Notes: generated by a model not told the origin, from the letters alone. DNA of 43,012 nt from Chloroflexota bacterium (GCA_005889405.1 VBFY01000010.1:1-43012), one strand, 5' to 3'; positions 11,323 to 36,019 are shown, numbered from the stretch's first letter. Made by a program: numbers and translations.

Positions 11323-12039
11323 TCACGCGCGGTGTGGCAGCCGCCGCACCCAGTACTCCCAGGCGCGCTCGCCCGCGCGGCCGCGCAGCATCTCGGATCC
11401 ACGCTGCGTCTCGCCCGCGCTCAGGGAGCGCGCCTCGCCGAGCCGGAGCGCGGCCGCGAGCAGCGTCGCGTTGCGCTCGAGATACACGGCCGTGAAGACA
11501 GCGGCGCGCAGGTTCGCGCCCACGACGACGCAGCCATGGCCGCGCATCAACGCGACCGTCCGCGGGCCGAGCGCCGCGGCGAGGCTGTCGGCCTGCGTCG
11601 CATCGCGCACGAGGAGATCGGTCTCACCGAAGAGCTTCGCGATGTCCCAGACCGGGATCTCGTGTCCGATCACCGATCCCATGTGATAGATGGGCCGCAG
11701 CGGGACGCCGGTCACGCCGAAGGGGATGACCGACGGCGCGTGCGAGTGGACGACCGCGCCGACGTCCGGGCGCACGCGGTACACCGCCGCGTGGATCGCG
11801 GCCTCTTCATAGGAGCGGCCGTCGGCCCCGGCCACGCGCGCGCCGCGTAGATCGAGTAACTGGAGGTCGGCGGACTCCACGAGCTCGGGCGCGCGGCTCT
11901 GCGAGATGAGGAAGCGGTCGGTCGTCGCCGGATGCCGAGCGCTCACGTGGCCGAAGGCATCCAGGACGCCCTCGTTCGAGAGGATGTGATTGGCCAGGAT
12001 CAGATCGTCGACGACCTGCGGCGGTGGGAAAACGCTCAC
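11323..12039 (-). CDS. Class II aldolase/adducin-family protein (possible decarboxylase)
   Basis: Zinc-dependent enzyme of the fuculose-aldolase family, 238 residues. Metal ligands are visible: H98 and H100 in VVHSHAP and H168 in RGHG, with the acidic SYEEAAIH segment at 76-83. The GTG at 12039 overlaps the TGA of the IPP isomerase gene (GTGA), so it is translationally coupled. It closes the operon that starts at 17195. Within this family some members are decarboxylases of dihydroxyphthalates and related aromatic acids, which would fit the neighbours, but sugar-phosphate aldolases look alike. A second paralogue lies at 27245-27949. Confidence 0.85.
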   Translation of the reverse strand: MSVFPPPQVVDDLILANHILSNEGVLDAFGHVSARHPATTDRFLISQSRAPELVESADLQLLDLRGARVAGADGRSYEEAAIHAAVYRVRPDVGAVVHSHAPSVIPFGVTGVPLRPIYHMGSVIGHEIPVWDIAKLFGETDLLVRDATQADSLAAALGPRTVALMRGHGCVVVGANLRAAVFTAVYLERNATLLAAALRLGEARSLSAGETQRGSEMLRGRAGERAWEYWVRRLPHRA

Positions 12040-13154
12040 GAGCCTCCGCGGCGCTCCGCGACGCGCCGCCGATAGCCGAGCTGCTCGAGCCACGCCAGTG
12101 AGCGGCCGGTGATGACGACGCCGGCGCGCGGAAGGTCGGCCGCGCGGTGCACGCCCGAAAGGAAGATCGCGGTGCGAAGCTCCAGCTCGAAGGCGGTGAT
12201 CCAGTCGAGCACCGCGGCCTCGCCCTTGAGCGCCGCTTGCAGCAGCGGACGGCCGACGCCGACGACCGTTGCGCCGAGGGCCAGGGCCTTCGCCGCATCG
12301 AGTCCGCTCCGCACGCCGCCGGTCGCGATCACCGGCAAACCCGTCGCGGCGGAGCCGACGACGGCGACCGCGGTCGGGACGCCCCAGTCGCGGAAGCGTT
12401 CGCCGAGGCTCATACGCTGCTTGTCGCCCTGCGCCGCGGCGCGCAGCGACTCGATCGCGGCGAACGACGTCCCGCCGACGCCGCCGACGTCGATCGCCTT
12501 CACGCCGAGTCGGCGCAGCCGACGCGCGACCTCGAGCGTGATGCCCGCGCCGGTCTCCTTCGCGATCACCGGGACGGGCGAGCGGCGCACCAGGGCGCGC
12601 ACCGCGGCGTCGGAGCCTTTCGCGCGCGTCTGACCTTCGGGCTGGACGGACTCCTCGAGGTAGTTGAGGTGGAGCGCGAGCGCGTCCGCTCTCACCATCC
12701 GAACGATCTTCTCGACGTCCTTCATGGCCAGCGCGCCTTCGCTGTCCTGCTTCACGAGCTGCGAGATGCCGACGTTCGCGATCACGAACGCATGGGGGGC
12801 GTTCTCACGCACGATCGAGTACGTCGGCGCGAGCGATGGATCGCGCAGCGCCGCGCGCTGACTACCGACGCCCATCGCGATCCCGGCGCGCTCCGCGACA
12901 CGCGCGAGGAGCTCGTTCACCGCGATCGCACGACCGTGGCCGCCGGTCATCCCCGAAATGACGAGGGGCAGCCGCAGCCTGTGGCCGAGGAAGACGGTGC
13001 CGACCGCGATCTCTTCCGCATCGATCGACGGGAGCGCATCGTGCACGAGATGGATGTCCTCCCACCCCGCGCTGGATCTCGTCTCGATGTCGCCCTCGGC
13101 CGCGAGCTGGAGGTGCTCGCCCTTCCGCTTGGCGATCTCTTCTGCTTCTGACAC
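12036..13154 (-). CDS. fni: Type 2 isopentenyl-diphosphate delta-isomerase
   Basis: FMN- and NADPH-dependent TIM-barrel enzyme interconverting IPP and DMAPP, 372 residues. Family blocks in order: RKGEHL (10-15), ISGMTGGH (67-73), GSQRAAL, IANVGISQL, HLNYLEESVQPEG (162-174), IAKETGAGI, DVGGVGGTSFA and IATGGVRSGLDAAKALALGA. The conserved QE pair after HLN reads E167-E168, so the Gln is replaced by Glu. The gene lies 12 nt after a CoA-transferase gene inside a UbiD operon. That is notable because the UbiD cofactor needs a dimethylallyl group. Whether it serves that purpose or general isoprenoid synthesis is inference. Confidence 0.94.
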   Translation of the reverse strand: MSEAEEIAKRKGEHLQLAAEGDIETRSSAGWEDIHLVHDALPSIDAEEIAVGTVFLGHRLRLPLVISGMTGGHGRAIAVNELLARVAERAGIAMGVGSQRAALRDPSLAPTYSIVRENAPHAFVIANVGISQLVKQDSEGALAMKDVEKIVRMVRADALALHLNYLEESVQPEGQTRAKGSDAAVRALVRRSPVPVIAKETGAGITLEVARRLRRLGVKAIDVGGVGGTSFAAIESLRAAAQGDKQRMSLGERFRDWGVPTAVAVVGSAATGLPVIATGGVRSGLDAAKALALGATVVGVGRPLLQAALKGEAAVLDWITAFELELRTAIFLSGVHRAADLPRAGVVITGRSLAWLEQLGYRRRVAERRGGS

Positions 13155-13166: not shown

Positions 13167-14381
13167 CTAAGCGAAGACGCCGTCGGCGGCGAGCGAGGCG
13201 TATTCGTCCGCGCCCAGACCGAGCAGACCCTTGAACACTGCCTCGTTGTGCTCGCCGAGCGTCGGGCCCGCGCGATCCGCGCGCGCCGGCGTCTCGGACA
13301 GCGCGAACGGTGGGGCCATGAGGCCGACCTCGCCGAGGCCCGCGTGTTTCGCGCGGCGCCACACGCCGCGGTGCGCGAGCTGCGGATCGTCGAACAGCTC
13401 ACCGACCGACTCCACCGCCGCGGCGCGAATGCCACGCGTGCGAAGGGTCGCGACGGTCTCGTCGCGCGAACGCATGCGCGTCCATTCCGCGATCCGGTCA
13501 TCGAGCTCGGCCTCGCGCGCGCGACGGCCCGCCGCGGTCGCGAGCCCGGGGTCGCGCGACCACTCGGGGTCGCCGAGCGCAACGCGGAACTGCGCCCACT
13601 CCTCGTCGCTCCACACCGAGAGCGCCACCCAGCCGTCGTCAGCGGGGGTCGGGTACACGCCGTGCGGAACGGCTACGCGGTCGTGGTTGGCGTCGCGCGT
13701 CGGCACCGTGCCGTTCGCCGCATGCTCGAGGAGCGCGGGCGCGAGGAATTGCAGGCCCGCCTCGTACTGCGAAAGGTCGATGATGCATCCGTCACCGGTG
13801 CGGCGGTGGCGTTCCAGCGCGGCAAGGATCGCGATGACGCCGTAGCCCACCGCGATGTAGTCGATGTACGGTCCGTAGAGGATCACCGGCGTGCGGTCCG
13901 GCTCGCCGAGGAGCTCGTTGAAGCCCGCGAGCGCTGTCAGCTGGCTCCCGTAGCCGGGGTGCTGCGCGTGCGGTCCGGTCTGTCCCTGATTGCAGCTCGA
14001 GAGGATCACGAGGTCCGCGCGAGCGCGTCGCAGCGCGTCATGTCCGAGCCCGCGACGCGCGAGCGTCCCCGCGGGAAAGCTCTCGATCACGACATCGGCC
14101 GCCTTCACCAGACGCAGCGCAAGCTCCACCGCGCGCGGCTGCTTCAGATCGAGCGTGACGCCGCGCTTTCCGGCGTTGTAAAAGGCGAACATGCCCGCGC
14201 GATCGGGCCCGACGACGTTGTCGCGGAAGGGCGGGTAGGTGGAGCGGAACGGGTCGAGCGCGGTCGACGACTCGACGTGGATGACGTCGGCGCCGTGCTG
14301 CGCGAGGTAGGTGCCCACGAGCGGCCCGGCTGCGGCCCACCCGAACTCGACGACACGCGTTCCCTCGAGCGCCGCGGTCAT
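13167..14381 (-). CDS. CaiB/BaiF-family (class III) CoA-transferase, catalytic subunit
   Basis: Moves CoA from a CoA-ester to a free acid through an aspartyl-CoA anhydride. 404 residues. N-terminal EFGWAAAGPLVGTYLAQHGADVIHVES and KRGVTLDLK are typical. The catalytic Asp is placed at D174 in GPYIDYIAVGYG, aligned with Asp169 of formyl-CoA transferase. The start overlaps the stop of the second CoA-transferase (ATGA). Two unequal CaiB/BaiF proteins in tandem recall heteromeric enzymes such as BbsEF and the succinyl-CoA:phthalate CoA-transferase SptAB. The substrate is not readable, but the UbiD-like gene upstream in the operon suggests an aromatic acid. Confidence 0.93.
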   Translation of the reverse strand: MTAALEGTRVVEFGWAAAGPLVGTYLAQHGADVIHVESSTALDPFRSTYPPFRDNVVGPDRAGMFAFYNAGKRGVTLDLKQPRAVELALRLVKAADVVIESFPAGTLARRGLGHDALRRARADLVILSSCNQGQTGPHAQHPGYGSQLTALAGFNELLGEPDRTPVILYGPYIDYIAVGYGVIAILAALERHRRTGDGCIIDLSQYEAGLQFLAPALLEHAANGTVPTRDANHDRVAVPHGVYPTPADDGWVALSVWSDEEWAQFRVALGDPEWSRDPGLATAAGRRAREAELDDRIAEWTRMRSRDETVATLRTRGIRAAAVESVGELFDDPQLAHRGVWRRAKHAGLGEVGLMAPPFALSETPARADRAGPTLGEHNEAVFKGLLGLGADEYASLAADGVFA

Positions 14382-15565
14382 GCCGTCACCGCGCCCAGAA
14401 CTTCCACGTCGTGCTCGCCGAGCCGCGGCGGTCCGCGACGGAGGCGAGGCCGCTCGCCGTCGAACAGCGCGAAGCCTCCGGGGAACGGCAGCGTCGTGCC
14501 ATCGACGGGGGTGTCCTGCCAGAACTCGCGCGCACGGAGCTGCGCGTCCGCGTACACGTCAGACGCGTCGGCGACGGGATAGCCGAGCATGTTGCGCTCG
14601 ATGACGCCGGCGAAGAACTCGCGCTTGGTGATCGTGCGAAAGAACGCCGCGACCTCGCGCTCGAGCGCATCGACCTGTTCCTGCGTGAGCGTGCGGTTGT
14701 CGAAGGCGTCCCACCCCGTCGCCGTGAAACGCGGCGCGGTGAAGCCGCGCTCACCCATCCACGACGCGAGCATCCGGCCGGTGTGACGGCCGATCGGCCC
14801 ACCCTGGATCGCGAAGCTCACGTGACCATCGGCGCACTCCCAGATGTTCCGGAAGCGCGCGCCGACGATGCTGCGGCCGATGAGGAACGCACCGAGCCGC
14901 CGGTGTTCCTCCTTCGCGACATCCCAATGCACGCACGCTGGTGGATGGACGGTGACCATGCTCGCCTGACCCGAGACGTCGACTTGCTGGCCGCGCCGGG
15001 TCGCCGCGCGAGCCGCGAGCGCGAACAACGCGCCCATCGCCGCGTACATCCCGCTCCAGAACGGCGACTGCGGGAGCGTCGTGCGGACCGGTGCGCGTTC
15101 CGGCTCGCCCGCGAGCGCGAGCGCTCCGCTCGACGCGGTGACCTCGAGGTCCGACGCGGGCACGCCCGCGAGCGGACCCGTCAGCCCATACGGCGTCACG
15201 CTGGCGACGACGAGCGACGGCGACCATGAGGCGGCCGTTGTCGCGTCGACCACCTCGCGCGCCTGCACGAGCACATCCGCCGACGAGAGGAGCGAGCGCA
15301 GACGGTCGCGCTCCCGCGGCAGATCGAGCCGGACGCCGCGCTTGTTCGCGTTGAGCGCGATCCAGAGCAGACCACGGTCCGCGCCGGCGCGGTCGTGGAG
15401 GAACGGCGGGACGGCTCGCACCAGATCGCCGCCGGGTGGCTCGACCTTCACCACATCAGCCCCGAGGTCGGCGAGGATCCGCGCGGCGTGGGCCGCCGCC
15501 GACGCGCGCCAGACATCGTCGCCGGTGATCTCGATGACGCGCAGACCGTCGAGCAGGGCGGTCAT
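14378..15565 (-). CDS. CaiB/BaiF-family CoA-transferase, second subunit without the usual Asp
   Basis: 395 residues of the class III CoA-transferase fold (VIEITGDDVWRAS, DLGADVVKVEPPGGD, NKRGVRLDL). When aligned by hand with the neighbour, the position of the catalytic Asp is occupied by a proline (about P168 in LPQSPFWSG). It is therefore likely the non-catalytic partner of a heteromeric enzyme. It begins 7 nt after the UbiD-like gene and overlaps the next gene by ATGA, so the three are co-translated. If the alignment is off by a few residues the loss of Asp would need revision, although no other Asp is nearby. Confidence 0.9.
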   Translation of the reverse strand: MTALLDGLRVIEITGDDVWRASAAAHAARILADLGADVVKVEPPGGDLVRAVPPFLHDRAGADRGLLWIALNANKRGVRLDLPRERDRLRSLLSSADVLVQAREVVDATTAASWSPSLVVASVTPYGLTGPLAGVPASDLEVTASSGALALAGEPERAPVRTTLPQSPFWSGMYAAMGALFALAARAATRRGQQVDVSGQASMVTVHPPACVHWDVAKEEHRRLGAFLIGRSIVGARFRNIWECADGHVSFAIQGGPIGRHTGRMLASWMGERGFTAPRFTATGWDAFDNRTLTQEQVDALEREVAAFFRTITKREFFAGVIERNMLGYPVADASDVYADAQLRAREFWQDTPVDGTTLPFPGGFALFDGERPRLRRGPPRLGEHDVEVLGAVTA

Positions 15566-15572
15566 CTGGCCG

Positions 15573-17195
15573 CTAGCGGCCGGTCCTGGCGAGGACCTCC
15601 GCCCAGGACTGCGTCTTCATCAGCGCCTTGCCCTTCGCGATCTGATCCGCGTCGAACCATGTCGCGGGATCCACGCGATCGATCGGATAGACCGGCCGCA
15701 TGAAGTCCTTCTCGAGGCCGTACGGAACCGTCGCGTCGATGCCCATGCCACCCTCGAAGCGGATGTTCATACCGGTCCACTCCGCGCTGCCCGCGGTGAC
15801 GCGCTCGGATGGGATGAACGTCTGGCCTGCACCGCCCGGGACCGGCTTGAGCAAGTCCTGATTCGGATTCACCCGCGTGGTCAACGCCCAGATGATGTCG
15901 TCCATGCTGTAGATGTCGACATCGCTGTCGACGCAGATGCAGAGGCGCAGCCCCGCGCTGGTCGCCATCGCCGCCGCGATGAAGTTGCGCACCCAGCCGT
16001 CGTCGGTCTTGAGGCGCTTGCGCACCTGCAGGATGCACCCGGCCCAGTCGGTCATCGGGAACGGGATGTTCACGTCCTGGATGAGGCCGGGCTGGATGCG
16101 ATCGCAGAGCTCGAAGAACGCGGCCTCGCGCACCGTCGTGTCGATGTTGTTGCAGTCGTACATGTGCACGCCCATCGGATAGATGAACGGACGCTTGGAG
16201 CGCTTGCGCATAGTGATCGCGGTGACGTGGAAGGTCTGCGTGCGGTAGGCCTTGCCCATGTAGCCGGCCCACTCCGGGTGGAAGTGGAAGCGGCCCTGCG
16301 TGTCCGCGTCCTCAGCCTCCTTCGTCTCGTAGCGTTTGTCGCGCGCGTGGAGATAGCCCTCGAGCACGTACTCCGAGTCCGCGACCGCATATGCGTCGAC
16401 GGTTCGCGCTTTCACGAGGCGCGTCGGAAAGCCCTGCACCGCGCCCGCCGCGCCGAGCTCGTCGCCGCCCCGCGGTAGCACGACGTAATCAAAGCCGCCA
16501 CCGGCGAGGAGCGTGGACGCGACCGGTAGGCCGAAGCACACGGTCAGCGGGATCGGCTGGTCGTCCTTGTAGTGCTCGGTGAGGATCTGCCACATGTGCG
16601 AGCCCGGGGACGACTGGAACGTTCCGACGTTGCCCCAGCGGAAGTTCATCCGGTTGTAGCCGATGTGGCTGCCGCCCCAGAAATACTTCCCGACGACCAC
16701 GCTGTTGCCGCTGCCGATGGTGATCTCGCCCTCGAGGTGCGTGTGGCGGATCGCCATGATGAACTTGTTCACGTCGAGGTCGTCGGTGATGACCTCTTCC
16801 TGGCAGGGCGCCTCGTCCGGTGAGATCACTTCGTTCGGGATCGGATGCGTGAGCGAGTACGCGAGCTTGCGCGTGCGGTCGGTGGCGTTGTCGTAGCCGA
16901 ACAGGCGGTCGACGATGTCCATGTTCGCGAAGAGGTTCGTGACGGCCCGCGCGTGCGGGTAGCCCTTCACGTTGTTGAACAGGATCGGGTAGCTGCCGTC
17001 GAAGTGCTTCTGGATCCCGGTGAGCTGCAGATCGCCGTCGACCTCCACGTCGGTCTCCATGAGCAGACCTTCGCGGCGCAACCATTCGATGGTCGCCGGA
17101 AGCGAGCGGAGCGCCTCTTTCGGGGCGGGCCTCACGCCGCGCGGATCCGTAAGGTGGGTCTTCGTGCGCGCGAGGTCAGCCTGCACCGTGGCCAT
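15573..17195 (-). CDS. UbiD-family decarboxylase of the phthaloyl-CoA decarboxylase kind
   Basis: 540 residues, longer than the other two UbiD proteins here and close to the size of phthaloyl-CoA decarboxylase. UbiD enzymes use prenylated FMN, a divalent metal and potassium to add or remove CO2 on unsaturated or aromatic acids. Ligand positions N181, R186, H200 and E246 can be placed, and E308 in HPEWAGY matches the last Glu of the EGPFGE active-site motif. The first Glu of that motif is replaced (F303 by position), and the N-to-H spacing is 19 instead of 23. The start has a GGGAGGA Shine-Dalgarno and a GntR-type operator lies 27 nt upstream. Tandem CoA-transferases follow. The phthaloyl-CoA assignment is inference. 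Confidence 0.85.
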   Translation of the reverse strand: MATVQADLARTKTHLTDPRGVRPAPKEALRSLPATIEWLRREGLLMETDVEVDGDLQLTGIQKHFDGSYPILFNNVKGYPHARAVTNLFANMDIVDRLFGYDNATDRTRKLAYSLTHPIPNEVISPDEAPCQEEVITDDLDVNKFIMAIRHTHLEGEITIGSGNSVVVGKYFWGGSHIGYNRMNFRWGNVGTFQSSPGSHMWQILTEHYKDDQPIPLTVCFGLPVASTLLAGGGFDYVVLPRGGDELGAAGAVQGFPTRLVKARTVDAYAVADSEYVLEGYLHARDKRYETKEAEDADTQGRFHFHPEWAGYMGKAYRTQTFHVTAITMRKRSKRPFIYPMGVHMYDCNNIDTTVREAAFFELCDRIQPGLIQDVNIPFPMTDWAGCILQVRKRLKTDDGWVRNFIAAAMATSAGLRLCICVDSDVDIYSMDDIIWALTTRVNPNQDLLKPVPGGAGQTFIPSERVTAGSAEWTGMNIRFEGGMGIDATVPYGLEKDFMRPVYPIDRVDPATWFDADQIAKGKALMKTQSWAEVLARTGR

Positions 17196-17248: not shown

Positions 17249-18289
17249 CTAGTTCTTGTCGAGACCTCGGTCGACCGCGCTCTGGACGAAGCTCGTGTCG
17301 AGCATCCTCGTCACGTCGTAGCTCTTCACCTTGTCGCTCTTCGCGCCGAGGATCGTCTGAGCATCGGCGAACATCTCCGGCTTTGGGAACGGCTGGGTGG
17401 CCGTGACGAGCTGGGCGTAAAAGTCGTACGTCGCGGCCATCGCCACGTCGTCGGTCGACTTGAAGTACTTCTTCAGCACGTCGATGCCGAACTGGCGGTC
17501 GGCCTTGAGCTTCTTGATGCCCTGCACGAGGGAGTCGACGTACCGCTGGACGACGGCTTTGTTCGCGGTCAGGAAGGTCCGCGTCACCACCACCGACGTA
17601 TTCGCCGAGGGAAGCTTCTGCGACGCGAGGTCGTAGAGCACGTGGAAGCCCGCCTTCTCCACCGCGAGGGAGTCGGGAGGCTGCGAGACGCCGGCATCGA
17701 TCGCGCCGGAGAGCATCGCCGCGGTGCGCTGCGCAGCCGACCCGACCGGGACGATCGTGACGTCCTTGTCGGGATCGAGCCCCAACTTCTTGAGCGCCGC
17801 GCGGGTCGCGATGTCGGACGACGATCCGACCGACGACACGCCGATCTTCTTTCCTTTCAGGTCCGCGATCGACGTGATCTTCGCCGCGACCTCGAGGACG
17901 AATGGATACACGCCGGCAAGCTGCGCGACGACGACCAGGTCGCCGCCCTCGGCATTCGCCGACAGGACCTCGGAGCCGCCGACCTGCGCGACCTGGACCT
18001 GGTTGGAGATGACGGCGGGCACGCCCTGCGCGCTCGCGATGTTCTGCAGGTCAGCGACGGTCAGCGCGTTCTGCTCGAAGAACCCGCCTTCCTTGGTCGC
18101 CCAGAGAGGCAGCTCGTCGCCGATGATGTTGCTGTACGACACGACGAGACTGAACGGGGACGGTTTCGGCGTCGCGGTCGCGGCGGCCGAGGCCGCGGTC
18201 GTAGGTGATGGCGATGGAGTGACCGCGGTGCCACCGCACGCGGCGGCGAGAACGAGCGAGGCGACCGATAGGACGAGAGCGCGGCGCAT
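17249..18289 (-). CDS. SsuA/TauA (NMT1)-type ABC substrate-binding lipoprotein
   Basis: 346 residues. A lipoprotein-type signal (MRRALVLSVASLVLAAACGG) is followed by a Thr/Ala/Pro linker. The mature part begins LVVSYSNIIGDELPLWATKEGGFF, has QVAQVGGSEVL and the DLKGKKIGVSSVGSSSDIATR block typical of NMT1/THI5-like binding proteins. Members bind sulfonates, nitrate, pyrimidine precursors or aromatic acids. ATG at 18289 has a GGAGGTG Shine-Dalgarno. It is most similar by eye to the binding protein at 41309 (same SFVQSA-DRGLDK ending). It is transcribed away from the ubiD gene at 18345 through a shared operator and has no adjacent permease. Confidence 0.92.
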   Translation of the reverse strand: MRRALVLSVASLVLAAACGGTAVTPSPSPTTAASAAATATPKPSPFSLVVSYSNIIGDELPLWATKEGGFFEQNALTVADLQNIASAQGVPAVISNQVQVAQVGGSEVLSANAEGGDLVVVAQLAGVYPFVLEVAAKITSIADLKGKKIGVSSVGSSSDIATRAALKKLGLDPDKDVTIVPVGSAAQRTAAMLSGAIDAGVSQPPDSLAVEKAGFHVLYDLASQKLPSANTSVVVTRTFLTANKAVVQRYVDSLVQGIKKLKADRQFGIDVLKKYFKSTDDVAMAATYDFYAQLVTATQPFPKPEMFADAQTILGAKSDKVKSYDVTRMLDTSFVQSAVDRGLDKN

Positions 18290-18324
18290 GAGGCACCTCC
18301 CACTCACTCGGAACGGGGCTGTCG

Positions 18325-18344: not shown

Positions 18345-19814
18345 GTGCGCTACGGGGACCTCCGGGGCTGGATCGCGGCCGCGCGTGAGATCGGCGAAGT
18401 GCGCGACGTGCGCGGCGCATCGTGGGAGGAGGACATCGGCCGCATCACCGAGATGCTTCACCACACCGACGACTCCCCCGCCGTCCTGTTCGACGACATC
18501 CCCGGATATCCGAAGGGCCAGCGCATCCTCGTCAACGCGAACGCGACACGCCGACGGCTCGCTCTCACGTTCGGTCTTCCCCTGGACACCGAGCGCCGGC
18601 CGCTCATGGACGAATTCCTCCGCCTCACCGAGTCGGATCGCGCGCTGCCGCCGCGGATCGTGCGGGACGGCCCGGTCTTCGAGAACGTGCTGCGCGGCGC
18701 GGACATCGATGTCCTGAAGTTCCCGTCGCCGTTCTGGCATCCGCTCGACGGCGGCCGCTACATCGGGACGGGCGTCGTCGACGTTCTCAAGGATCCGGAC
18801 AGCGACTGGGTGAACCTCGGCACGTATCGCGTCATGGTCCACGACTCCAAGCGCGTCGGCGTGTACATCTCGCCTGGTAAGCACGGTCGGCAGTTCCGCG
18901 ACACGTACTTCAAGCGCAAGCAGCCCTGCCCCATCGCGGTCGTCGTCGGTGTCGAGCCGCTGCTGTTCATCGCATCGACGCTCGAGGTGCCGCAGGGCGT
19001 TTCTGAATACGACTGGACCGGCGGCATCCGCGGCGAGCCGTACGAGATCGTGATCGATCCGATCACGAAGCTGCCGATCCCGGCCGCGGCGGAGATCGTG
19101 CTCGTCGGCTTCCTCCATCACGATCGCCTCGCCCCCGAGGGACCGTTCGGCGAGTGGACGGGGTACTACGCGTCCGGCGAGCGCGCCGAACCGGTGCTCG
19201 AGGTCGAGGCGATCTACCACCGCAACGACCCGATCATCCTCGGCGTCCCGCCGAACAAGCCGCCGTACGAGCCGCACCGCTACCGCGAGTACCTCCGTTC
19301 GGCGCTGCTGCTGCGCGAGCTCAAGGCGGCGGGGGTACCCGGCGTGACCGACGCGCACTGCTTCGGCGTCGGCGGCTGCCGCCTGTTCAACGTCGTCTCG
19401 ATCGAGCAGCGCTACGCGGGCCACGCGCGACAGGCGGGTCACGTCGCGGCGATGTGCCGCGTCGGCGCTTATCTCGGACGCATCGTGGTGGTCGTGGACG
19501 ACGACATCGACGTCACCGACCTGAACGACGTGATGTGGGCGATCCTCACGCGCTCCGACCCCGAACGCTCGCTCGACATCATCCACCGCGCGTGGTCCGG
19601 CCCGCTCGATCCGGCCATCCATCCCGACCAGAAGGGCCACAACTCCAGACTCATCATCGACGCGACGAAGCCGTGGGAGTGGCGCGATAGGTTCCCGATC
19701 GCGATCGGGCCCGACGCGGCGACGAAGCGCGAGACCCGTAGGAAGTGGGGCTGGATCCTCGAGAGGGCCGTCGGCGACGCGATGCGCGAAGCCGCGGCCG
19801 CGCCGGCCGAATGA
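18345..19814 (+). CDS. UbiD-family decarboxylase with complete active site
   Basis: 489 residues, the normal UbiD length. Relative to Fdc1, all key residues are present: metal ligands N157, H180 and E221, and catalytic R162, E265 and E270 (NLGTYR, SPGKHG, SEYDWTGG, EGPFGEWTGYY). It should need prenylated FMN made by UbiX (25854-26438). The GTG start lies 6 nt after the -10-like TACCAT inside operator 2 and has no Shine-Dalgarno. The next gene, a bicupin, overlaps by ATGA. It is closely similar to the UbiD at 34271. Substrate unknown; an aromatic or unsaturated carboxylic acid is expected. Confidence 0.95.
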   Translation: MRYGDLRGWIAAAREIGEVRDVRGASWEEDIGRITEMLHHTDDSPAVLFDDIPGYPKGQRILVNANATRRRLALTFGLPLDTERRPLMDEFLRLTESDRALPPRIVRDGPVFENVLRGADIDVLKFPSPFWHPLDGGRYIGTGVVDVLKDPDSDWVNLGTYRVMVHDSKRVGVYISPGKHGRQFRDTYFKRKQPCPIAVVVGVEPLLFIASTLEVPQGVSEYDWTGGIRGEPYEIVIDPITKLPIPAAAEIVLVGFLHHDRLAPEGPFGEWTGYYASGERAEPVLEVEAIYHRNDPIILGVPPNKPPYEPHRYREYLRSALLLRELKAAGVPGVTDAHCFGVGGCRLFNVVSIEQRYAGHARQAGHVAAMCRVGAYLGRIVVVVDDDIDVTDLNDVMWAILTRSDPERSLDIIHRAWSGPLDPAIHPDQKGHNSRLIIDATKPWEWRDRFPIAIGPDAATKRETRRKWGWILERAVGDAMREAAAAPAE

Positions 19815-20917
19815 CCGCGACCAGCGGCGTGACTGGCAACGGAGACCGGCCGAAGTTCCTCGTCGACCCCTACCTCGAGTGGGTCGCAGGCGAAGGCGTG
19901 CCGGTCTATGAGGACTTCGGCTTCGATCTGCTCACGCTCGACGTCCGCCCGTGGGCGCGCATGGACGCGCTCGGCGCGTACGCGCACGCGCTCGGCCGCG
20001 GGGACTTCGTGAACATGTACGTCTGCGAGATCGCGCCCGGCAAGCAGACGGCGCCCCAGAAGCATCTCTTCGAGGAGGTCGTGTACGTCCTCGCCGGCGG
20101 AGGCAGCACGACGGTCGAGATGCCGGACGGTGAGGAGCGCTCGTTCGAGTGGCACACCGGCAGCCTTTTCGCGCTGCCGCTCAACGCTCGCTATACGCAC
20201 TTCAATGGCAGCGGACAGAAGCCGGCGCGTTTCGTGTCGACGACGAACCTTCCGATGATGCTCAACGTGTTCCGCAACGACGCGTTCATCTGGCACAACG
20301 ACATGGTGTTCCCAGAGCGCTTCGGCGACGGGCAGCATTACCGCGGCGATGGCACGTTCATTCCGATGCGACCGGGCCGGCATATGTGGGAGACGAACTT
20401 CGTGCCCGACCTGCGCACGTTCGAGCTGAAGACCTGGAAGGAGCGCGGCGCCGGCGGGAGCAACATCATGTTCGTCCTCGCCGACGGCACGATGCACGCG
20501 CACATCTCGGAGATGCCGGTGGGCACGTACAAGAAGGGCCACCGCCACGGCGCCGACTTCCACGTCTTCGCGGTCACCGGCCACGGCTACAGCCTGTACT
20601 GGCAGGAGCGTGACAAGGATCTGAGGCGCTTCGACTGGAAACATGGCTCTGTCTTCGCCCCGACCGACGGGCTCTACCACCAGCACTTCAACACGAGCCC
20701 CGAGCCGGCGCGCTACCTCGCGGTCGCGTTCGGCGGCCTGCGTTACCCGACGCTCGCGGACAAGCGCGCGACGTTCACCGGCATGGATGTGAGCGTGAAG
20801 GAGGGCGGGCGCCAGATCGAATACGAGGACGAGGATCCGCGCATCCGCCGGATCTACGAGGACGAGCTTCGGAAGAACGGCGTCCCCTCGCGCATGGGCG
20901 AGTTCCTCCCCGCCTGA
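19811..20917 (+). CDS. Bicupin protein, possible ring-cleavage or other dioxygenase
   Basis: 368 residues with two cupin domains. The first (about 70-170) contains GKQTAPQKHLFEEVVYVLAGGG and the second (about 235-330) EMPVGTYKKGHRHGADFHVF. His/Glu patterns suitable for a metal site are seen, best in the second domain (GHRHGADFH). Gentisate- and hydroxynaphthoate-type dioxygenases are bicupins, but so are isomerases and non-catalytic proteins. The ATG overlaps the ubiD stop (ATGA) and the EutA-type gene follows. The coupling suggests that it acts on the UbiD product or substrate. It is a different type from the bicupin at 37334. Confidence 0.8.
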   Translation: MTATSGVTGNGDRPKFLVDPYLEWVAGEGVPVYEDFGFDLLTLDVRPWARMDALGAYAHALGRGDFVNMYVCEIAPGKQTAPQKHLFEEVVYVLAGGGSTTVEMPDGEERSFEWHTGSLFALPLNARYTHFNGSGQKPARFVSTTNLPMMLNVFRNDAFIWHNDMVFPERFGDGQHYRGDGTFIPMRPGRHMWETNFVPDLRTFELKTWKERGAGGSNIMFVLADGTMHAHISEMPVGTYKKGHRHGADFHVFAVTGHGYSLYWQERDKDLRRFDWKHGSVFAPTDGLYHQHFNTSPEPARYLAVAFGGLRYPTLADKRATFTGMDVSVKEGGRQIEYEDEDPRIRRIYEDELRKNGVPSRMGEFLPA

Positions 20918-20955
20918 TCCGCTTCCACGACCACGACGCGGCCGACGAGCCCGCC

Positions 20956-22236
20956 ATGCCGCCGGGCGGGCCCGAGGCGTTCCTCCAACCCGACGACGTC
21001 ATGCTGACCACGGTCGGCATCGACATCGGCTCGACGACATCGCACGTCATGCTCGCGCGCCTGCGGCTGCAGCGCCTCGCTGATGCGCTCTCGAGCCGCT
21101 ACGTCGTCGTCGAGCGCGAGGTCATCCACCGCTCTCCGATCCTGCTCACGCCCTTCAAGGCCGACGGGCGCATCGACGTCACCTCGCTCGAGCTGTTCGT
21201 CGGGACCGCCTACGGGGCGGCGAGCCTCCGGCCGGACGAGGTCGACACCGGTGCGGTGATCCTGACCGGCGCGGCGCTCGAGCGCTCCAACGCGCGAGCG
21301 ATCGACGAGCTCTTCGCGGCGCAGGGCGGGCGGTTCGTGTGCGCGACCGCCGGCCATCGTCTCGAGGCGATCCTCGCGGCGCACGGGTCAGGCGCCGTCG
21401 CGCGCTCGCGCCAACGCGGCACGACCGTGCTGAACATCGACGTCGGCGGCGGGACGACAAAGCTCGCGCTCTGCGTCGCCGGCGTCGTGCGGGCGGCGAG
21501 CGCTCTCGCGGTCGGCGCGCGGCACGTCCCGCTGCCCGTCGCGGAGATGGCCGACGCGATCGTCACGGCCGCGAACGGCCGCGGGACTTCGCGCGACCTG
21601 CTGCCGCCGCTGCCCGAGATCCCACGGCCCGACGAGATCGTCTTCTCCGGCGGCGTGAGCGAGCATTTCTACGGTCGCGACCGCGCGGCGCACGGGGATC
21701 AGGGTCTCGCGCTGGCGCGCGCGCTCGATGAGCGTCGCCCCAGACTGCCCGCGCAGGTCGTCGAGGGACGCGAAGGCATCCGCGCGACGGTCGTCGGTGC
21801 GTCGCAGTTCACGGTGCAGCTGTCGGGGAGCACGATCTTCGTGTCCGCGTCGGAGGCGCTACCCGTGCGCAATGTGCCGGTCATCCGGGCTGAGCTTGCC
21901 GCGCTGGCAACGGCAGCCTCACCGGTCGAGGGCGCGGGCCCGATCGCGCTCGCGATCCCGTGGCGCGGCGCGCCGCGGCATGCGGCGCTGCGCGCGCTCG
22001 GCGAAGCGATCCTCGCGGCGGCCGGTACGCACCATCCGCTCGTCGTCGCGCTCGACGCCGACGTCGCCCACACGCTCGGCCGCATCCTCGTCGACGAGCT
22101 CGGCGCGACCGGCCCGCTCGTCGTGATAGACGGACTCGACCTACGCGACCTCGACTACATCGACATCGGCGAGATCGTGCGCCCGGCGGGCGTGGTGCCC
22201 GTCGTGATCAAGTCGCTGGTGTTCGCGGCGGGTTAG
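20956..22236 (+). CDS. eutA: EutA-like reactivating factor of B12-dependent ammonia-lyase
   Basis: EutA is an actin-fold ATPase that reactivates ethanolamine ammonia-lyase by exchanging damaged cobalamin. This 426-residue protein shows the EutA pattern end to end: VGIDIGSTTSHV, the VEREVIHRSPILLTPF segment, VDTGAVILTG, VLNIDVGGGTTKLAL, FSGGVSEHFYG, ATVVGASQFTVQLSGSTI, LPVRNVPV and the tail DYIDIGEIV-VVPVVIKSLVF. It is about 40 residues shorter than enteric EutA. No EutB or EutC lies in the window, so its client is unknown. ATG at 20956 is used; the frame stays open upstream and encodes a His/Asp-rich FHDHDAADEP, so the true start may be a CTG near 20914. Its stop overlaps the stop of the convergent gene. 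Confidence 0.85.
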   Translation: MPPGGPEAFLQPDDVMLTTVGIDIGSTTSHVMLARLRLQRLADALSSRYVVVEREVIHRSPILLTPFKADGRIDVTSLELFVGTAYGAASLRPDEVDTGAVILTGAALERSNARAIDELFAAQGGRFVCATAGHRLEAILAAHGSGAVARSRQRGTTVLNIDVGGGTTKLALCVAGVVRAASALAVGARHVPLPVAEMADAIVTAANGRGTSRDLLPPLPEIPRPDEIVFSGGVSEHFYGRDRAAHGDQGLALARALDERRPRLPAQVVEGREGIRATVVGASQFTVQLSGSTIFVSASEALPVRNVPVIRAELAALATAASPVEGAGPIALAIPWRGAPRHAALRALGEAILAAAGTHHPLVVALDADVAHTLGRILVDELGATGPLVVIDGLDLRDLDYIDIGEIVRPAGVVPVVIKSLVFAAG

Positions 22237-25853: not shown

Positions 25854-26438
25854 TCACGATTTCTCTGTCGGTCCGCTCCAGCGGCGGAAGAGCGCGTGCT
25901 CGATGCCGAGCTGGTCGAGCGCCTTCCCGACGCTGTGATCGACGAGATCCATGAGCGTCGTCGGCTTTTGGTAGAACCCCGGCACCGGCGGGAGGATCAC
26001 CGCGCCCGCGAGCGCGAGCTCGTGCATGAGGCGAAGGTGATTCGCGTTGAGCGGCGTCTCACGCACCATGAGCACGAGCTTGCGTCGTTCCTTCAGGTGG
26101 ACGTCCGCGGCACGCACGATGAGGTTGTCGTCGAGGGCGTTCGCGATCGCCGACATCGTCCGCATGCTGCACGGCGCCACGAGCATGCCCGCGGTCAGGA
26201 ACGTGCCACTGGCGAGCGACGCGGCCAGATTCTTCTCGTCGTGAACGACGTCCGCCAGGCCGACGACGTCGTCGTAGCTCCGGTCCGTCTCGTACGCGAT
26301 CGTCGCTTTCGCACCAGATGACACGATCGCGTGCAGCTCGACCGAGCGATCCTGGCGGATGACCTCGAGGGCGCGGATCCCGTAGACGGCCCCCGACGCG
26401 CCCGACAGGGCGACGACGATCCTGCGTGGCGCGCTCAC
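25854..26438 (-). CDS. ubiX: UbiX-type flavin prenyltransferase
   Basis: Joins a dimethylallyl group to reduced FMN to form prenylated FMN, the cofactor of UbiD enzymes. 194 residues, family length. Motifs: SGASGAVYG (12-20, with S15), APCSMRTMSAIA (88-99), VRAADVHLKERRKLVLMVRETPLN with R109, K116, R126 and E127, PGFYQKP with Y156, and W187 near the end. These match the conserved residues of Pseudomonas UbiX with a constant offset. GTG at 26438 follows the gntR stop by 4 nt, so it is co-transcribed with its regulator. Three UbiD clients lie in the same window. Confidence 0.95.
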   Translation of the reverse strand: MSAPRRIVVALSGASGAVYGIRALEVIRQDRSVELHAIVSSGAKATIAYETDRSYDDVVGLADVVHDEKNLAASLASGTFLTAGMLVAPCSMRTMSAIANALDDNLIVRAADVHLKERRKLVLMVRETPLNANHLRLMHELALAGAVILPPVPGFYQKPTTLMDLVDHSVGKALDQLGIEHALFRRWSGPTEKS

Positions 26439-26442
26439 GTCA

Positions 26443-27204
26443 TTACCGGCGGTGCGCGCGCACCAGCCGCGGCGCGGGAAGAGCGGCCGGCTTCTCCGCG
26501 TCAGTGCGCTCGGCCAGGCGCCGCCGCAGTCTCTTTTCGAAGTCGGAGAGGTGCACCAGCATGACCTCGCGCGCACCCTCCGGATCGTGCCGGCGCACGG
26601 CCTCGACGATCTCCTCGTGCGCCCTTTGCGTCGCGCGGCCGGATTTCTGATCGCGCAGGTCGCGGATGCTCGGCACGAGCAGCTCGCGGTACGCCTCGAC
26701 CGTCGCATAGAGCACCTCATTGCCGGCCGCGCGCGCGAGCTCGACGTGGAAGTCCATGCTCGCGTCCGCGTGCGTGATCGGCTCGCGCAGGAGCGGCCGT
26801 GCGCGATCGACGCTCTGCTGCAGGCGACTGACGGCGGCGGCGTCGGCACGCTGTGCCGCAAGCTCCGCGGTCGCTGCTTCAACGATCTTGCGCGCCTCCG
26901 CCAGCTCGGAGAGGGTCATCCGCCGCAGCTTGATCAGCGTCGAGATCGATTCGGCCACGCGATCGGTGTTCGCTTCTTCGACGAACGCGCCGCCCATCGC
27001 GCCCACCTTGACGCGGATCAGACCCCGCGCCTCGAGGACGCGCAGCGCGTCACGGACCGTGATGCGCGAGACGCCGAACTGTTCGGCGAGCTCACGCTCC
27101 GATTGGAGGCGGTCCCCCGGCGAGAGCTCGGTGGCGAAGATCGCGCGCTCGATCTGGGAAACGATCTCGCCCGACGCGCGCGATTGCCGTATCGGCGTGA
27201 ACAC
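26443..27204 (-). CDS. GntR-family transcription regulator, FCD (FadR) subfamily
   Basis: 253 residues. The winged helix occupies 10-75 (SERELAEQFGVSRITVRDALRVLEARGLI) and the all-helical FCD effector domain 90-230. FCD histidines H153, H196 and H218 are present, but the usual Asp four residues before the first His is Ser149. FCD proteins usually bind a carboxylic acid, sometimes with a metal. The GTG start at 27204 lies 7 nt after a TACCAT box within a TGGT-N3-ACCA palindrome, so it most likely represses itself. The same palindrome occurs in front of four other operon starts of the island. ubiX follows directly. Confidence 0.95.
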   Translation of the reverse strand: MFTPIRQSRASGEIVSQIERAIFATELSPGDRLQSERELAEQFGVSRITVRDALRVLEARGLIRVKVGAMGGAFVEEANTDRVAESISTLIKLRRMTLSELAEARKIVEAATAELAAQRADAAAVSRLQQSVDRARPLLREPITHADASMDFHVELARAAGNEVLYATVEAYRELLVPSIRDLRDQKSGRATQRAHEEIVEAVRRHDPEGAREVMLVHLSDFEKRLRRRLAERTDAEKPAALPAPRLVRAHRR

Positions 27205-27210
27205 GAGCGG

Positions 27211-27225
27211 AATGGTATGACCAAT
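27211..27225 (-). promoter_or_regulatory. GntR/FCD-type operator site 3 (autoregulatory)
   Basis: AATGGTATGACCAAT, core TGGT-N3-ACCA, 6 bp upstream of the gntR GTG. Minus-strand TACCAT (27212-27217) is placed 7 nt before the GTG as a -10 of a leaderless mRNA. A weak TGGACG lies 16 nt further upstream as a possible -35. Confidence 0.87.
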
Positions 27226-27244
27226 CCGCGCCGCGTCCAGCCGT

Positions 27245-27949
27245 CTAATCGAGGTCGTCGAGCCGCCCCGCGACGCGCGCGCGCTCGACCGCGTCGTTCC
27301 AGGTCTTCAGGGCGACCGAGCGCTGGACGAGTGCCGCTCGCACGCGCCGGGTCTCGTCCGCGGTGTATTCGCGCGGCTCGCCGAGCTGCGCTGCGAGGCG
27401 CAGTCGATCCGCGCTCTCCTCGAGGAACATCGCCGCGGTCACGCAGTCGGGTAGGTCCTCGCCCATCACGACCGCACCGTGCCCGCGCAGGAGAAGCGCG
27501 CGTTCAGCGCCGAGGACGCGCGCGACTGCTTCGCCGAGCGCGGCCGTTCGCACGAGCTCGGGATCGTCGTACACGGGGATGGTCCCGCCGAACCACGCTC
27601 CGGCGTTCGACGCGACGATGAGCGGGCGCCCGGTGACGGCGAACGCGGTCGCCGCGCGCGGATGGAAATGCGCGACGCTCCCCGCGTCGCGGCGTGCGCG
27701 GTAGATCGCGAGGTGCAGCGGCGTCTCCGACGGCGGCTCGCGATCGCCGACCGGCGTTCCGTCGGTCAGGCGGACGACGGCGACCTGGTCGGGTCGCGCC
27801 GTGATGCGGCTCGACCCACGGTCGTTGATGTAGACCACATCGCCATCGCGGAGGGAGATATGGCCATGCATGTCGAAGAGTCCGGCGACCGCGAGCACGC
27901 GCGCCGCGGTCGCGACGAGGGTCCGGGGATCGGCGCGCTGCGCGCTCAC
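27245..27949 (-). CDS. Class II aldolase/adducin-family protein (second copy)
   Basis: 234 residues with the zinc ligands H94 and H96 (AHFHPRA) and H157 (RGHGAVVMG), and an acidic residue E75 in PPSETPLH at the place of the catalytic Glu of fuculose aldolase. The GTG start overlaps the stop of the flavin reductase gene (GTGA). It closes the operon ATPase-permease-flavin reductase-aldolase. It is only moderately similar to the copy at 11323 (HFH against HSH), so the two probably have different substrates. Aldolase and aromatic acid decarboxylase are both possible. Confidence 0.85.
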   Translation of the reverse strand: MSAQRADPRTLVATAARVLAVAGLFDMHGHISLRDGDVVYINDRGSSRITARPDQVAVVRLTDGTPVGDREPPSETPLHLAIYRARRDAGSVAHFHPRAATAFAVTGRPLIVASNAGAWFGGTIPVYDDPELVRTAALGEAVARVLGAERALLLRGHGAVVMGEDLPDCVTAAMFLEESADRLRLAAQLGEPREYTADETRRVRAALVQRSVALKTWNDAVERARVAGRLDDLD

Positions 27950-28491
27950 GTCGGGTAGCCCTCGGGCGACTCTTCGCTCGTCCAATGGCCGCTCCGCATG
28001 TAGCGGCGGCGATACCGCAGCAGCGGATCCACGCGGCGCTCGTCGATCTGGTGCGCTGCGACTTCGCCAACGAAGAGCAGGTGGTCCCCCGTCTCGACCG
28101 ACCGGGTCACACGGCACCACAGGATCGCGAGGCTGCCGGCGACGGCGGGCGCGCTCAACCCTTCCGGTGGTTCCACGACCGGGATGCCGAGAGTCGCGAA
28201 CTTGTCGGGACCGGTAGCGGACTTCCCCGCCGCGGCAGCGAGCTCCTGCTGCGAGTCGTGGAGCAGCGACACGCTGAACTGCCCGCCGTCTCGTATGAGC
28301 CGTGTCGTGCGCGAGCCATGGTGCTCCGCGATCGCGACCATCGCCGGCGAGAGCGACACGTACATCGTCGTTCCGGTCGCGCACGAGCGCTCGCCCGCAT
28401 GAGCCGCGCCGATGATCGCGACCGGATGCGCGATGCGCGACAGCACCAGTCGTGCGACCCGGTAGACATCGTCCTTCGTCTGGGCGGTCAT
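27946..28491 (-). CDS. Flavin reductase-like FMN-binding split-barrel protein
   Basis: 181 residues of the flavin reductase (NtaB/HpaC-like) family. Seen are ATGTTMYVSLSPAMVAIAEHHGSRT, the GQFSVSLLHDSQQELA block and DHLLFVGEVAAHQ near the end. Such proteins reduce FMN or FAD with NAD(P)H and pass it to a partner enzyme. No monooxygenase is present in the window. UbiX requires reduced FMN, so supply of FMNH2 to UbiX is an attractive role (inference). The gene lies 10 nt after the permease and is coupled to the aldolase by GTGA. Confidence 0.88.
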   Translation of the reverse strand: MTAQTKDDVYRVARLVLSRIAHPVAIIGAAHAGERSCATGTTMYVSLSPAMVAIAEHHGSRTTRLIRDGGQFSVSLLHDSQQELAAAAGKSATGPDKFATLGIPVVEPPEGLSAPAVAGSLAILWCRVTRSVETGDHLLFVGEVAAHQIDERRVDPLLRYRRRYMRSGHWTSEESPEGYPT

Positions 28492-28501
28492 CGCGTTCCC
28501 G

Positions 28502-29404
28502 TCAGCGCTGCGGGCGCCACGCGTCGAAATGACGCTCGATGCGCTGCAGACCGTACGTCAGGAGCAGACCGGCGGCGGCGATCAGGAACAGGCCCACGAA
28601 CACCTTCGAGCTCTGAAAGGTGCTCCCGGCGATCATCATCATCCGCCCGAGGCCGTGCTGCGCGGCGACATATTCCGCGACGACGACGCCGATGAGCGCG
28701 TGTCCTGTGCCGAGTCGCAGCCCGGTGAGGATGAACGGGACGGAGCCCGGCAGCGCGATCGTCCGGAAGATATGGAGATCACCGGCTCCGAACGAGCGGG
28801 CGACGCGCAGCAGGCTCGCGTCGAGGCTGCGCACGCCGGCCATCGTGTTGATGAGGATCGCGAACACAGCGCCGAGGTAGATCACGGCGATCTTCGACTC
28901 GACGCCGATCCCGAGCCAGATGATGAACAGGGGGATCAGCACGATCCGAGGAGTCGCGTAAAAGAACGTGATGAACGGGTCGAAGATGTAGCGCAGACGC
29001 GGGTACCAGCCGAACAGCAGCCCGCACGGTATCCCGACGAGCGCCGCGAGCGCGTAGCCGATCACGAACTCCTGTCCCGACACCGCGATATCGGTCGCGA
29101 GCTCGCCGTCGTTGACGAGCTCGAGGAACGCCTGCCACACATCGACTGGGCCCGGGAGGAAGAGCGGGGACCAGATACGCGCCGAGGCGACGGCCTGCCA
29201 GGCGACGAAGAACACTGCGACGCCGAACGAACCGATGAGCAAGGCTTCATGCCGCTGGAAGAGGGTCTGTGGTGGGAGCGGCGTCGTCCGCACCAGCGAG
29301 TCGCGCGGAGCACGCGTCGGGCCCAGGTCGGTGCCGGCAAACCCCTCGGCCGGGAAGTTCGGGAGGCTGTCGTACTTGATCGGCTCCTCGGCGCGCTCCG
29401 CCAT
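28502..29404 (-). CDS. SsuC/TauC-type ABC transporter permease
   Basis: 300 residues: a hydrophilic N-terminal extension of about 50 residues, then six membrane helices of the BPD_transp_1 domain. The EAA-like loop reads SLLRVARSFGAGDLHIFRTIALPGSVPFI. It belongs to the nitrate/sulfonate/taurine class that works with NMT1-type binding proteins. ATG at 29404 adjoins the TAG of the ATPase gene without any gap. No binding protein is encoded next to it; those at 17249 and 38464 are orphan candidates and belong to the same predicted regulon. Confidence 0.94.
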   Translation of the reverse strand: MAERAEEPIKYDSLPNFPAEGFAGTDLGPTRAPRDSLVRTTPLPPQTLFQRHEALLIGSFGVAVFFVAWQAVASARIWSPLFLPGPVDVWQAFLELVNDGELATDIAVSGQEFVIGYALAALVGIPCGLLFGWYPRLRYIFDPFITFFYATPRIVLIPLFIIWLGIGVESKIAVIYLGAVFAILINTMAGVRSLDASLLRVARSFGAGDLHIFRTIALPGSVPFILTGLRLGTGHALIGVVVAEYVAAQHGLGRMMMIAGSTFQSSKVFVGLFLIAAAGLLLTYGLQRIERHFDAWRPQR

Positions 29405-30193
29405 CTATGCCGTCGCTGCCAGCCCGTCGCGGGCTGACTCCTCTCGAATGCTCTCCCAGATGCGTCTTTCGATCTCGACGAATCCCGGCTCTCGTTTCAC
29501 GCGCAGGTCGCGTGGACGCGGTATATCGACAGTCACGATCTCTTTCACGCGTCCCGGACGCGCGGTGAACACGATCACACGGTCCGCGAGGTACACCGCT
29601 TCGACGATGTCGTGCGTGATGAAGACGGCGGTCTTTCGCGTCTCGTTCCAGATGCGCAGCAGCTCCTGCTGCATCGTCTCGCGCGTCTGCGCATCGAGCG
29701 CGGCGAACGGCTCGTCGAGCAGCAGGACCTCGGGGTCGACAGCGAGAGCGCGCGCGAGGTTCACGCGCTGCTGCATGCCCCCGCTCAGCTCGAGTGGATA
29801 CGACTCCGCGAACCCTTCCAGGCCGACGAGGTCGACGAACCGTTTCGCCCGGCTCTGTGCTTCCGCCTTCGGAATCCGGATGAGCTCGACGCCGTACATC
29901 ACGTTGCCCGTGACCGTGCGCCACGGCAGGAGGCTCGGCTGCTGGAAGACCATCGCCCGGTCGTGGCCGGGGCGATCGATCTGCCGTCCGTCGAGCGCGA
30001 GGGCGCCGGAGGTAAGTGGCAGCAGGCCGTCCACCGCGCCCAGGAAGGTCGTCTTGCCGCAGCCCGACGGCCCCACGATCGCGACGAATTCGCCGTCGGC
30101 GACATCGAAGGTCACGCCGTCGACCGCCAGGAGCATGTCGCCGTACCGCTGGCGGCGGTGGTGGATGACGACGTCGCGCGCCTGCAACTTCAT
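29405..30193 (-). CDS. SsuB/TauB-type ABC transporter ATPase
   Basis: 262 residues. Walker A GPSGCGKTTF, Q-loop MVFQQPSLLPWRTV (the LLPWRTV form is typical of nitrate/sulfonate importers), signature LSGGMQQRVNLARAL, Walker B VLLLDEPFAALD and switch His in FITHDIVEA are all intact. The ATG at 30193 was chosen because it begins the domain directly; the longer frame overruns the operator region. It is the first gene of a four-gene operon controlled by operator 4, divergent from the binding protein at 30268. Confidence 0.94.
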   Translation of the reverse strand: MKLQARDVVIHHRRQRYGDMLLAVDGVTFDVADGEFVAIVGPSGCGKTTFLGAVDGLLPLTSGALALDGRQIDRPGHDRAMVFQQPSLLPWRTVTGNVMYGVELIRIPKAEAQSRAKRFVDLVGLEGFAESYPLELSGGMQQRVNLARALAVDPEVLLLDEPFAALDAQTRETMQQELLRIWNETRKTAVFITHDIVEAVYLADRVIVFTARPGRVKEIVTVDIPRPRDLRVKREPGFVEIERRIWESIREESARDGLAATA

Positions 30194-30230
30194 CCCGTTG
30201 AAGTGTGCGCCTGTTCCTCGGGCTTGGTCC

Positions 30231-30245
30231 AATGGTATTAACATT
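30231..30245. promoter_or_regulatory. GntR/FCD-type operator site 4 (divergent)
   Basis: AATGGTATTAACATT, one mismatch from the palindrome core TGGT-N3-ACCA. It lies between the ATPase start (30193, minus) and the binding-protein start (30268, plus). TACCAT on the minus strand and TAACAT on the plus strand (30239-30244) could both serve as -10 boxes. Confidence 0.75.
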
Positions 30246-30267
30246 CGCGGCCTCTGGAGGTGTGGGG

Positions 30268-31353: not shown

Positions 31354-31369
31354 CAGCGACAACGGACTG

Positions 31370-33088: not shown

Positions 33089-33131
33089 CCGTGCCAACTG
33101 GGCGGCAGGCCGGTGAGCGAGCGGTGAGCCA

Positions 33132-34250: not shown

Positions 34251-34270
34251 GAGAGGCGAGGAGGCACGCC

Positions 34271-35749: not shown

Positions 35750-35758
35750 TTCGCCCGC

Positions 35759-36019
35759 ATGGACTCTCTTATCCATGAGTTCGCGAAGCAGATCCGCGAC
35801 GCCGACGGTCATCTCTACAAGGCACGTGTGCTCGGACGGCAGCGCGGCGACGGGACGTGGATCGGCTGGATCGAGTTCAGTCCGCGCGGAACCGGCGGCG
35901 TCGTTCGCCGCACGAAGCGCGAGACGACGCAGCCCAGCCGCAATGCGCTTCGCTACTGGGCATCGGGTGTCCAACAGACGTACCTCGAAGGCGCCCTGGA
36001 GCGCGCGCTCCACGCCTGA
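35759..36019 (+). CDS. Small conserved-looking protein of unknown function
   Basis: 86 residues, probably a compact alpha/beta domain. Seen are an acidic N-terminus (MDSLIHEFAKQIRDADGHLYKARVLGR begins it), a GDGTWIGWIEF strand and a C-terminal RETTQPSRNALRYWASGVQQTYLEGALERAL. This pattern seems familiar from unannotated bacterial proteins, but I cannot name a family. It starts 9 nt after the ubiD stop and has the same codon use. It probably belongs to that operon. Confidence 0.7.
   Translation: MDSLIHEFAKQIRDADGHLYKARVLGRQRGDGTWIGWIEFSPRGTGGVVRRTKRETTQPSRNALRYWASGVQQTYLEGALERALHA

Follow-up and report, generated by a model that had tools for sequence, protein, structure and literature searches.

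Phthalate is a building block of plasticisers. Phthaloyl-CoA decarboxylase (PCD) has been described from denitrifying and sulphate-reducing bacteria, with one study placing the gene clusters beside transposases (PMC8269228, PMC13040137), and the CoA-transferases of strains EbN1 and PA01 reportedly act, among the phthalate isomers, on the ortho form alone (PMC13040137). According to its title, the study of Ebenau-Jehle et al. (2020; cited in PMC9516798) concerns denitrifiers that degrade phthalate via phthaloyl-CoA aerobically. Plasmid 2 of Aromatoleum aromaticum EbN1 (NC_006824) carries two copies each of pcd and the UbiX gene, together with genes for the two transferase subunits, another UbiD, an ABC transporter and a type 1 isopentenyl-diphosphate isomerase (idi). 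Here we compare these systems with a locus in a 43,012-nt stretch of a Chloroflexota bacterium (GCA_005889405.1, VBFY01000010.1:1-43012), hereafter the window. The host (genome G000) is a soil Chloroflexota metagenome-assembled genome (MAG), 96 % complete with 4.6 % contamination, and the nearest database records are likewise soil Chloroflexi MAGs.

Positions 17195 to 13167 on the minus strand of the window hold three intact ORFs, encoding a UbiD-family protein followed by two CaiB/BaiF CoA-transferases. The first (15573–17195, 540 aa) was annotated as pcd, for a phthaloyl-CoA decarboxylase that is prFMN-dependent by homology; the second (CaiB1, 14378–15565, 395 aa) and third (CaiB2, 13167–14381, 404 aa) as the predicted non-catalytic subunit 1 and catalytic subunit 2, respectively, of a succinyl-CoA:phthalate-type CoA-transferase (Spt). 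Third-position GC is 0.87–0.91 in these genes, compared with 0.71–0.77 in long antisense ORFs, and Pfam matches were all above cut-off (UbiD N, Rift and C domains in the pcd product; CoA_transf_3 in both transferases). The first-pass annotation of this DNA had described three genes at 13167–17195, overlapping or nearly so, and this was borne out by gaps of +7 bp between pcd and CaiB1 and −4 bp between CaiB1 and CaiB2. Its gene order and 540-residue UbiD-like protein also stood, whereas the two transferases, which it had called unequal, are of nearly the same length; it had moreover omitted a fourth operon gene, idi2 (12036–13154, minus strand), which starts 12 bp after CaiB2. The idi2 product scores 362 bits on TIGR02151 (cut-off 281) and is thus a type 2 isopentenyl-diphosphate isomerase. 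A family search of the window for RNAs returned none.

The window Pcd is 64 % identical to EbN1 Pcd over 96 %, whilst the other 39 plasmid records listed reach 26–29 %. Compared with the solved PCDs (PDB 8pmk, 8oz5/8p02) it gave E-values of about 1e-241, against 1e-40 for the next family, AroY (805 bits to 8pmk vs 141 to AroY), and both VdcC and AroY are farther from it than PCD by a wide margin. The relationship to PCD is full-length and well above that to other UbiD subfamilies. The protein also carries the PCD motifs NVGTFQ and QGRFHFHPEWAGYMGKAY, common to EbN1 and 8pmk, at sites occupied by GTYR and EGPFGE in the window's two further UbiDs, and a UbiX gene lies in the same cluster (25854–26444), 8.7 kb from pcd. 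A phylogeny of the UbiD-like protein, proposed earlier as a check, places it with PCD, separate from the other UbiD types of the window and of EbN1.

Each transferase subunit best matches its EbN1 counterpart, ahead of the benzylsuccinate CoA-transferase subunits BbsE and BbsF: CaiB1 is 42 % identical to Spt1 vs 34 % to BbsE, and CaiB2 48 % to Spt2 vs 37 % to BbsF. In CaiB2, the Asp of the motif GPYIDYI aligns with that of formyl-CoA transferase; the catalytic Asp is confined to this second subunit, being replaced in CaiB1, and the same holds for the EbN1 pair. Distances for Pcd are correlated with those for Spt (Mantel r 0.72 and 0.65, 0/2000 permutations), an effect to which shared host ancestry contributes. 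The transferases could instead serve another pathway (BbsEF-like benzylsuccinate activation, or formyl/oxalate CoA transfer), with the UbiD protein acting as a general hydroxyarylate decarboxylase, as might be argued from BbsE and BbsF being the nearest solved structures and from NCBIfam matches only to generic CaiB and UbiD families, under their cut-offs. Membership of BbsEF was nevertheless rejected on the weaker identity, PCD is a much nearer relative of the window Pcd than VdcC or AroY is, and no PCD or Spt model was among the NCBIfam matches, so that the silence of NCBIfam says little; we find this explanation scarcely credible.

The order Pcd-CaiB1-CaiB2 was observed in EbN1 and in 19 of the 25 database loci (with Chloroflexota, Acidobacteriota, SAR324 and Proteobacteria among them), and is therefore not due to chance; the earlier statement that the order matches the known phthalate system was thus upheld. 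Of the remaining six, three are cut off by the end of their contig (L015, L019 and L020), the pcd of L021 stands between CaiB2 and CaiB1, in that order, L030 combines a fragmentary pcd with a transferase pair on the opposite strand, and in L029 no transferase pair was found near pcd. Counterparts of all the gene kinds of the EbN1 cluster are present in the window, including UbiX (48 % identity), an ABC transporter ATPase (29405–30337, minus strand; 46 %) and permease (28502–29404, minus strand; 34 %), and two further UbiDs (53–55 %). The first-pass reading of the locus, as phthalate activation followed by phthaloyl-CoA decarboxylation, is strongly supported at the level of sequence by the 64 % identity to PCD, the motifs and the EbN1-like Spt pair in the same order, and is further backed by the UbiX, second UbiD type and ABC transporter common to the window and the EbN1 cluster. 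We conclude that the operon very probably serves to activate and decarboxylate phthalate, or else a very similar aromatic acid with ortho carboxyl groups. From the homology we infer the substrate and CoA donor: the heteromeric class III CoA-transferase (13167–15565) would move CoA from succinyl-CoA to phthalate, and Pcd (15573–17195) would then decarboxylate phthaloyl-CoA to benzoyl-CoA.

A Pcd match at E < 1e-100 was found in 15 of 350 sampled Chloroflexota. With 61 genomes searched, strong matches were confined to the family to which the window belongs; this is a family of uncultured soil Chloroflexota, with 19 relatives that have such a match (73–97 % identical). The module recurs in at least four phyla. 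In the Pcd tree the family forms a supported clade (96/100), whilst EbN1 and two MAGs, of Sterolibacterium and Xanthobacteraceae, make up a short-branched group nested in a larger clade (97/100) that also holds Acidobacteriota, SAR324 and others. This suggests that the phthaloyl-CoA pathway predates, and extends beyond, the bacteria from which it first became known; as EbN1 occupies a single shallow twig of the larger tree, the question of where phthalate degradation arose becomes testable. Within the family, the tree mixes genera and the window Pcd groups with another genus; simple vertical inheritance was rejected, as constraining the window's own genus together fails (p-AU 2.4e-7), and exchange among family members has therefore occurred.

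An identity of 64 % across such a deep split leaves room for another ortho-diacid substrate. The module might thus use a different ortho-dicarboxylated aromatic acid by the same chemistry, such as a plant- or humus-derived hydroxylated or pyridine dicarboxylate, with phthalate as a side substrate. The depth of the family, its presence in bacteria of several phyla and the confinement of EbN1-type PCDs to one twig would fit this, as would the co-conserved extra UbiD, cupin, EutA-family and aldolase genes, which phthalate alone does not explain. Yet the motifs and the pairing with Spt are kept from EbN1 to the window, and the transferases of EbN1 and PA01 reportedly select ortho-phthalate among the isomers (PMC13040137); we therefore regard a different principal substrate as distinctly unlikely.

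UbiX prenylates FMN using a dimethylallyl donor. It is for this reason that cofactor supply is the best reading of idi2: UbiX (25854–26444) would make prFMN, and the type 2 isomerase (12036–13154) would provide the dimethylallyl diphosphate for its synthesis, a role that we infer from gene context and consider reasonably likely. TIGR02151 was over cut-off in 13 of 29 related genomes, all from the window's family, and 12 of these 13 have pcd. In ten of the 12, type 2 idi and pcd share a contig and are a few kilobases apart (in G003 and G016 they are on different contigs), and in the thirteenth genome, G007, the contig starts inside CaiB1 and runs CaiB1-CaiB2-idi2, so that the contig break probably accounts for the missing pcd; G012 has an idi2 gene fragment on its pcd contig. 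The association of idi2 with the operon is significant (Fisher p = 0.0016, 18 family genomes), although these genomes are related and linkage alone could give such a value. Additionally, a type 1 idi is found 0.8–2.1 kb from pcd in EbN1, L025 and L027, and about 9 kb away in L029. We also weighed whether the isomerase is an ordinary housekeeping gene that stands beside the operon by chance, given that type 2 enzymes occur in many bacteria (over cut-off in 7 of 14 control genomes) and that the association is drawn from related genomes. This is unlikely in our view, as the TIGR02151 search of the 29 related genomes found no type 2 idi in relatives without the Spt/Pcd operon, and the EbN1, L025, L027 and L029 clusters hold an isomerase of type 1, which is non-homologous to type 2. 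Among the papers searched, none joined isopentenyl, phthalate and UbiD. The recurrent isomerase leads to a testable idea, namely that cofactor supply limits UbiD enzymes that are needed in large amounts; if true, this would aid the engineering of prFMN-dependent decarboxylases.

The UbiX assignment itself was over the cut-offs of PRK06029 (252 bits) and TIGR00421 (230 bits), the gene lying on the minus strand; UbiX was not seen in every Pcd-locus flank examined. Directly upstream of pcd is a gene for an SsuA/NMT1-type ABC substrate-binding protein (17249–18307, minus strand; family match), a candidate for phthalate uptake, which immediately precedes pcd in L006, L010, L011 and L012 also. Further proteins of this type are encoded at 38464–39516 and 41309–42349, and the window contains only one matching permease/ATPase pair. 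A second UbiD-type decarboxylase with the canonical EGPFGE, distinct from pcd (18345–19814, plus strand; PF01977; 53 % identical to the additional EbN1-cluster UbiD), and a third (34265–35749, plus strand; PF01977 228 bits; 55 %) were also annotated. The genome has three UbiD matches, each on the window's contig, and the two extra ones are nearest to the extra EbN1-cluster UbiD.

The second UbiD gene is followed on the plus strand by genes for a cupin protein (19811–20917; also in L014, L017 and L025) and an EutA-family protein (20956–22236; PF06277 304 bits; also in L017 and L025), both conserved in several Pcd loci; the two occur together (19811–22236) in loci of different phyla (L017, L025). 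The EutA family is that of ethanolamine ammonia-lyase reactivases. Adjoining ubiX is a gene for a GntR/FCD transcriptional regulator (26443–27204, minus strand), a homologue of which is upstream of pcd in L018, L019 and L028. Two class II aldolase/adducin-family proteins (PF00596) are encoded on the minus strand, at 27245–27961 and at 11323–12093, the listed start of the latter overlapping idi2 and perhaps being too early. The suggestion that these could be dihydroxyphthalate-type decarboxylases found no support: at 82 and 90 bits, both fall below the curated cut-off of 200 for NF053537, and an assignment as 3,4-dihydroxyphthalate decarboxylase PhtC was rejected. Towards the other end of the window lies a gene for a ThDP-dependent enzyme (39542–41293, plus strand), situated in G001, G002 and G003 between the region of the third UbiD (UbiD3) and a di-iron oxygenase cluster. 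Elsewhere in the family, at L071 (G001 contig C17, 50944–54990), a run of ORFs that by eye includes an IS21-type transposase lies between GroEL and the Pcd operon, and other members have GroEL near the operon without this run.

A search of the genome for benzoyl-CoA pathway genes, recommended in the first-pass annotation, found neither a class I nor a class II reductase in G000. There were no HGD-D (BcrB/BcrC) genes, which are present in G001, G002 and others, and no AFOR (PF01314, BamB-type) match in G000–G004. These absences in G000 rest on family searches of a MAG that is 96 % complete, and the missing reductase is thus no proof. At L087 (8268–16234 of G002 contig C90) and L086 there is a divergent class I reductase-like operon with Oah- and Had-like genes; its BcrC, B, A and D products are below equivalog cut-offs, and its hosts are Chloroflexota that also carry haem-copper oxidases. 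A haem-copper oxidase is present in G000 as well. Anaerobic continuation by a class I reductase, missing from the MAG through incomplete assembly only, would be in keeping with the BcrCBAD-like operon and Oah- and Had-like genes of G001 and G002, which are of the same genus, and with an HGD-D pair in seven of the 13 Pcd-positive family members searched. Against it, HGD-D is also absent from G003, G004, G008, G013 and G016, and the 17-kb region of G002 that holds the operon has, flanks included, no close counterpart in G000; we consider this explanation doubtful, albeit with some chance of being right.

On contig C1 of G000 (27142–37826; L069, L070) are two BoxB/PaaA-like di-iron proteins of 444 and 240 aa (27142–28476 and 35540–36262), each with both ExxH di-iron-site motifs, along with molybdenum-hydroxylase subunits, for which 4-hydroxybenzoyl-CoA reductase is the best match but falls short of its cut-off, and a protein that passes the cut-off for the benzoate-CoA ligase family. 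As the same genes adjoin the ThDP/UbiD3 end of the island in G001, G002 and G003, C1 probably adjoins the window's contig in the genome. This C1 gene set, beside the island in relatives, is a candidate for an undescribed aryl-CoA oxygenase set. Benzoyl-CoA might accordingly be attacked by these di-iron enzymes in an oxygen-dependent route, for which we judge the prospects to be evenly balanced; it is a weak candidate because the two proteins score 57.7 and 53.4 bits on the BoxB model (cut-off 499) and the best BoxC match in G000 scores 72 bits against a cut-off of 712. The standard Box pathway was rejected, there being no BoxB or BoxC equivalog over cut-off. A classical dioxygenase route was rejected too: the sole Rieske oxygenase (C97) lies outside the island and was not found in the Pcd-positive G001, G008, G011 and G015, and therefore does not track with pcd. 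With both a reductase-like operon and the di-iron set found in relatives, the lineage may use both anaerobic and aerobic modes.

These findings take the module into an uncultured soil Chloroflexota family, beyond the denitrifiers and sulphate reducers in which it was described (PMC8269228, PMC13040137). The new elements are the host lineage, the inclusion of an isomerase gene in the operon and, possibly, an aerobic outlet that differs from the known Box enzymes. Tentatively, and with rather less than even confidence in the whole, we propose an old natural pathway kept in several phyla, and not a recent response to plastics, in which non-homologous isomerases were separately recruited to feed prFMN synthesis, that of Chloroflexota being type 2 and that of Proteobacteria type 1, and whose product would be opened in these soil Chloroflexota by an undescribed aerobic benzoyl-CoA route relying on BoxB/PaaA-like di-iron enzymes.

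Compared with known systems, the aerobic hybrid phthalate pathway indicated by the title of Ebenau-Jehle et al. (2020) likewise proceeds through phthaloyl-CoA under aerobic conditions, but the oxygenase candidates in the window's genome are BoxB/PaaA-like and not BoxB equivalogs, with no BoxC equivalog. BbsEF (PDB 9fn0) is also a heteromeric class III transferase, each window subunit pairing with one of its partners, but the identity of these subunits to BbsEF (34, 37 %) is lower than to Spt (42, 48 %). The solved PCDs (PDB 8pmk, 8oz5/8p02) share the UbiD family and family-specific motifs, and the window Pcd aligns with them full-length from residue 25; it differs in an N-terminus about 11 residues longer, and lies in another clade of the family tree than their close EbN1 homologue. 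The EbN1 cluster differs in its host phylum, in having two pcd copies as opposed to one, in UbiX standing directly before pcd as opposed to 8.7 kb away, and in its flanking insertion-sequence genes, none of which were noticed in the window; the window, in turn, adds EutA-family, cupin and aldolase genes and carries a type 2 isomerase inside the operon, where that of EbN1 is type 1. Nevertheless, the two have the order pcd-spt1-spt2 in common, and UbiX, an ABC transporter, a second UbiD type and an isopentenyl-diphosphate isomerase are present in both.
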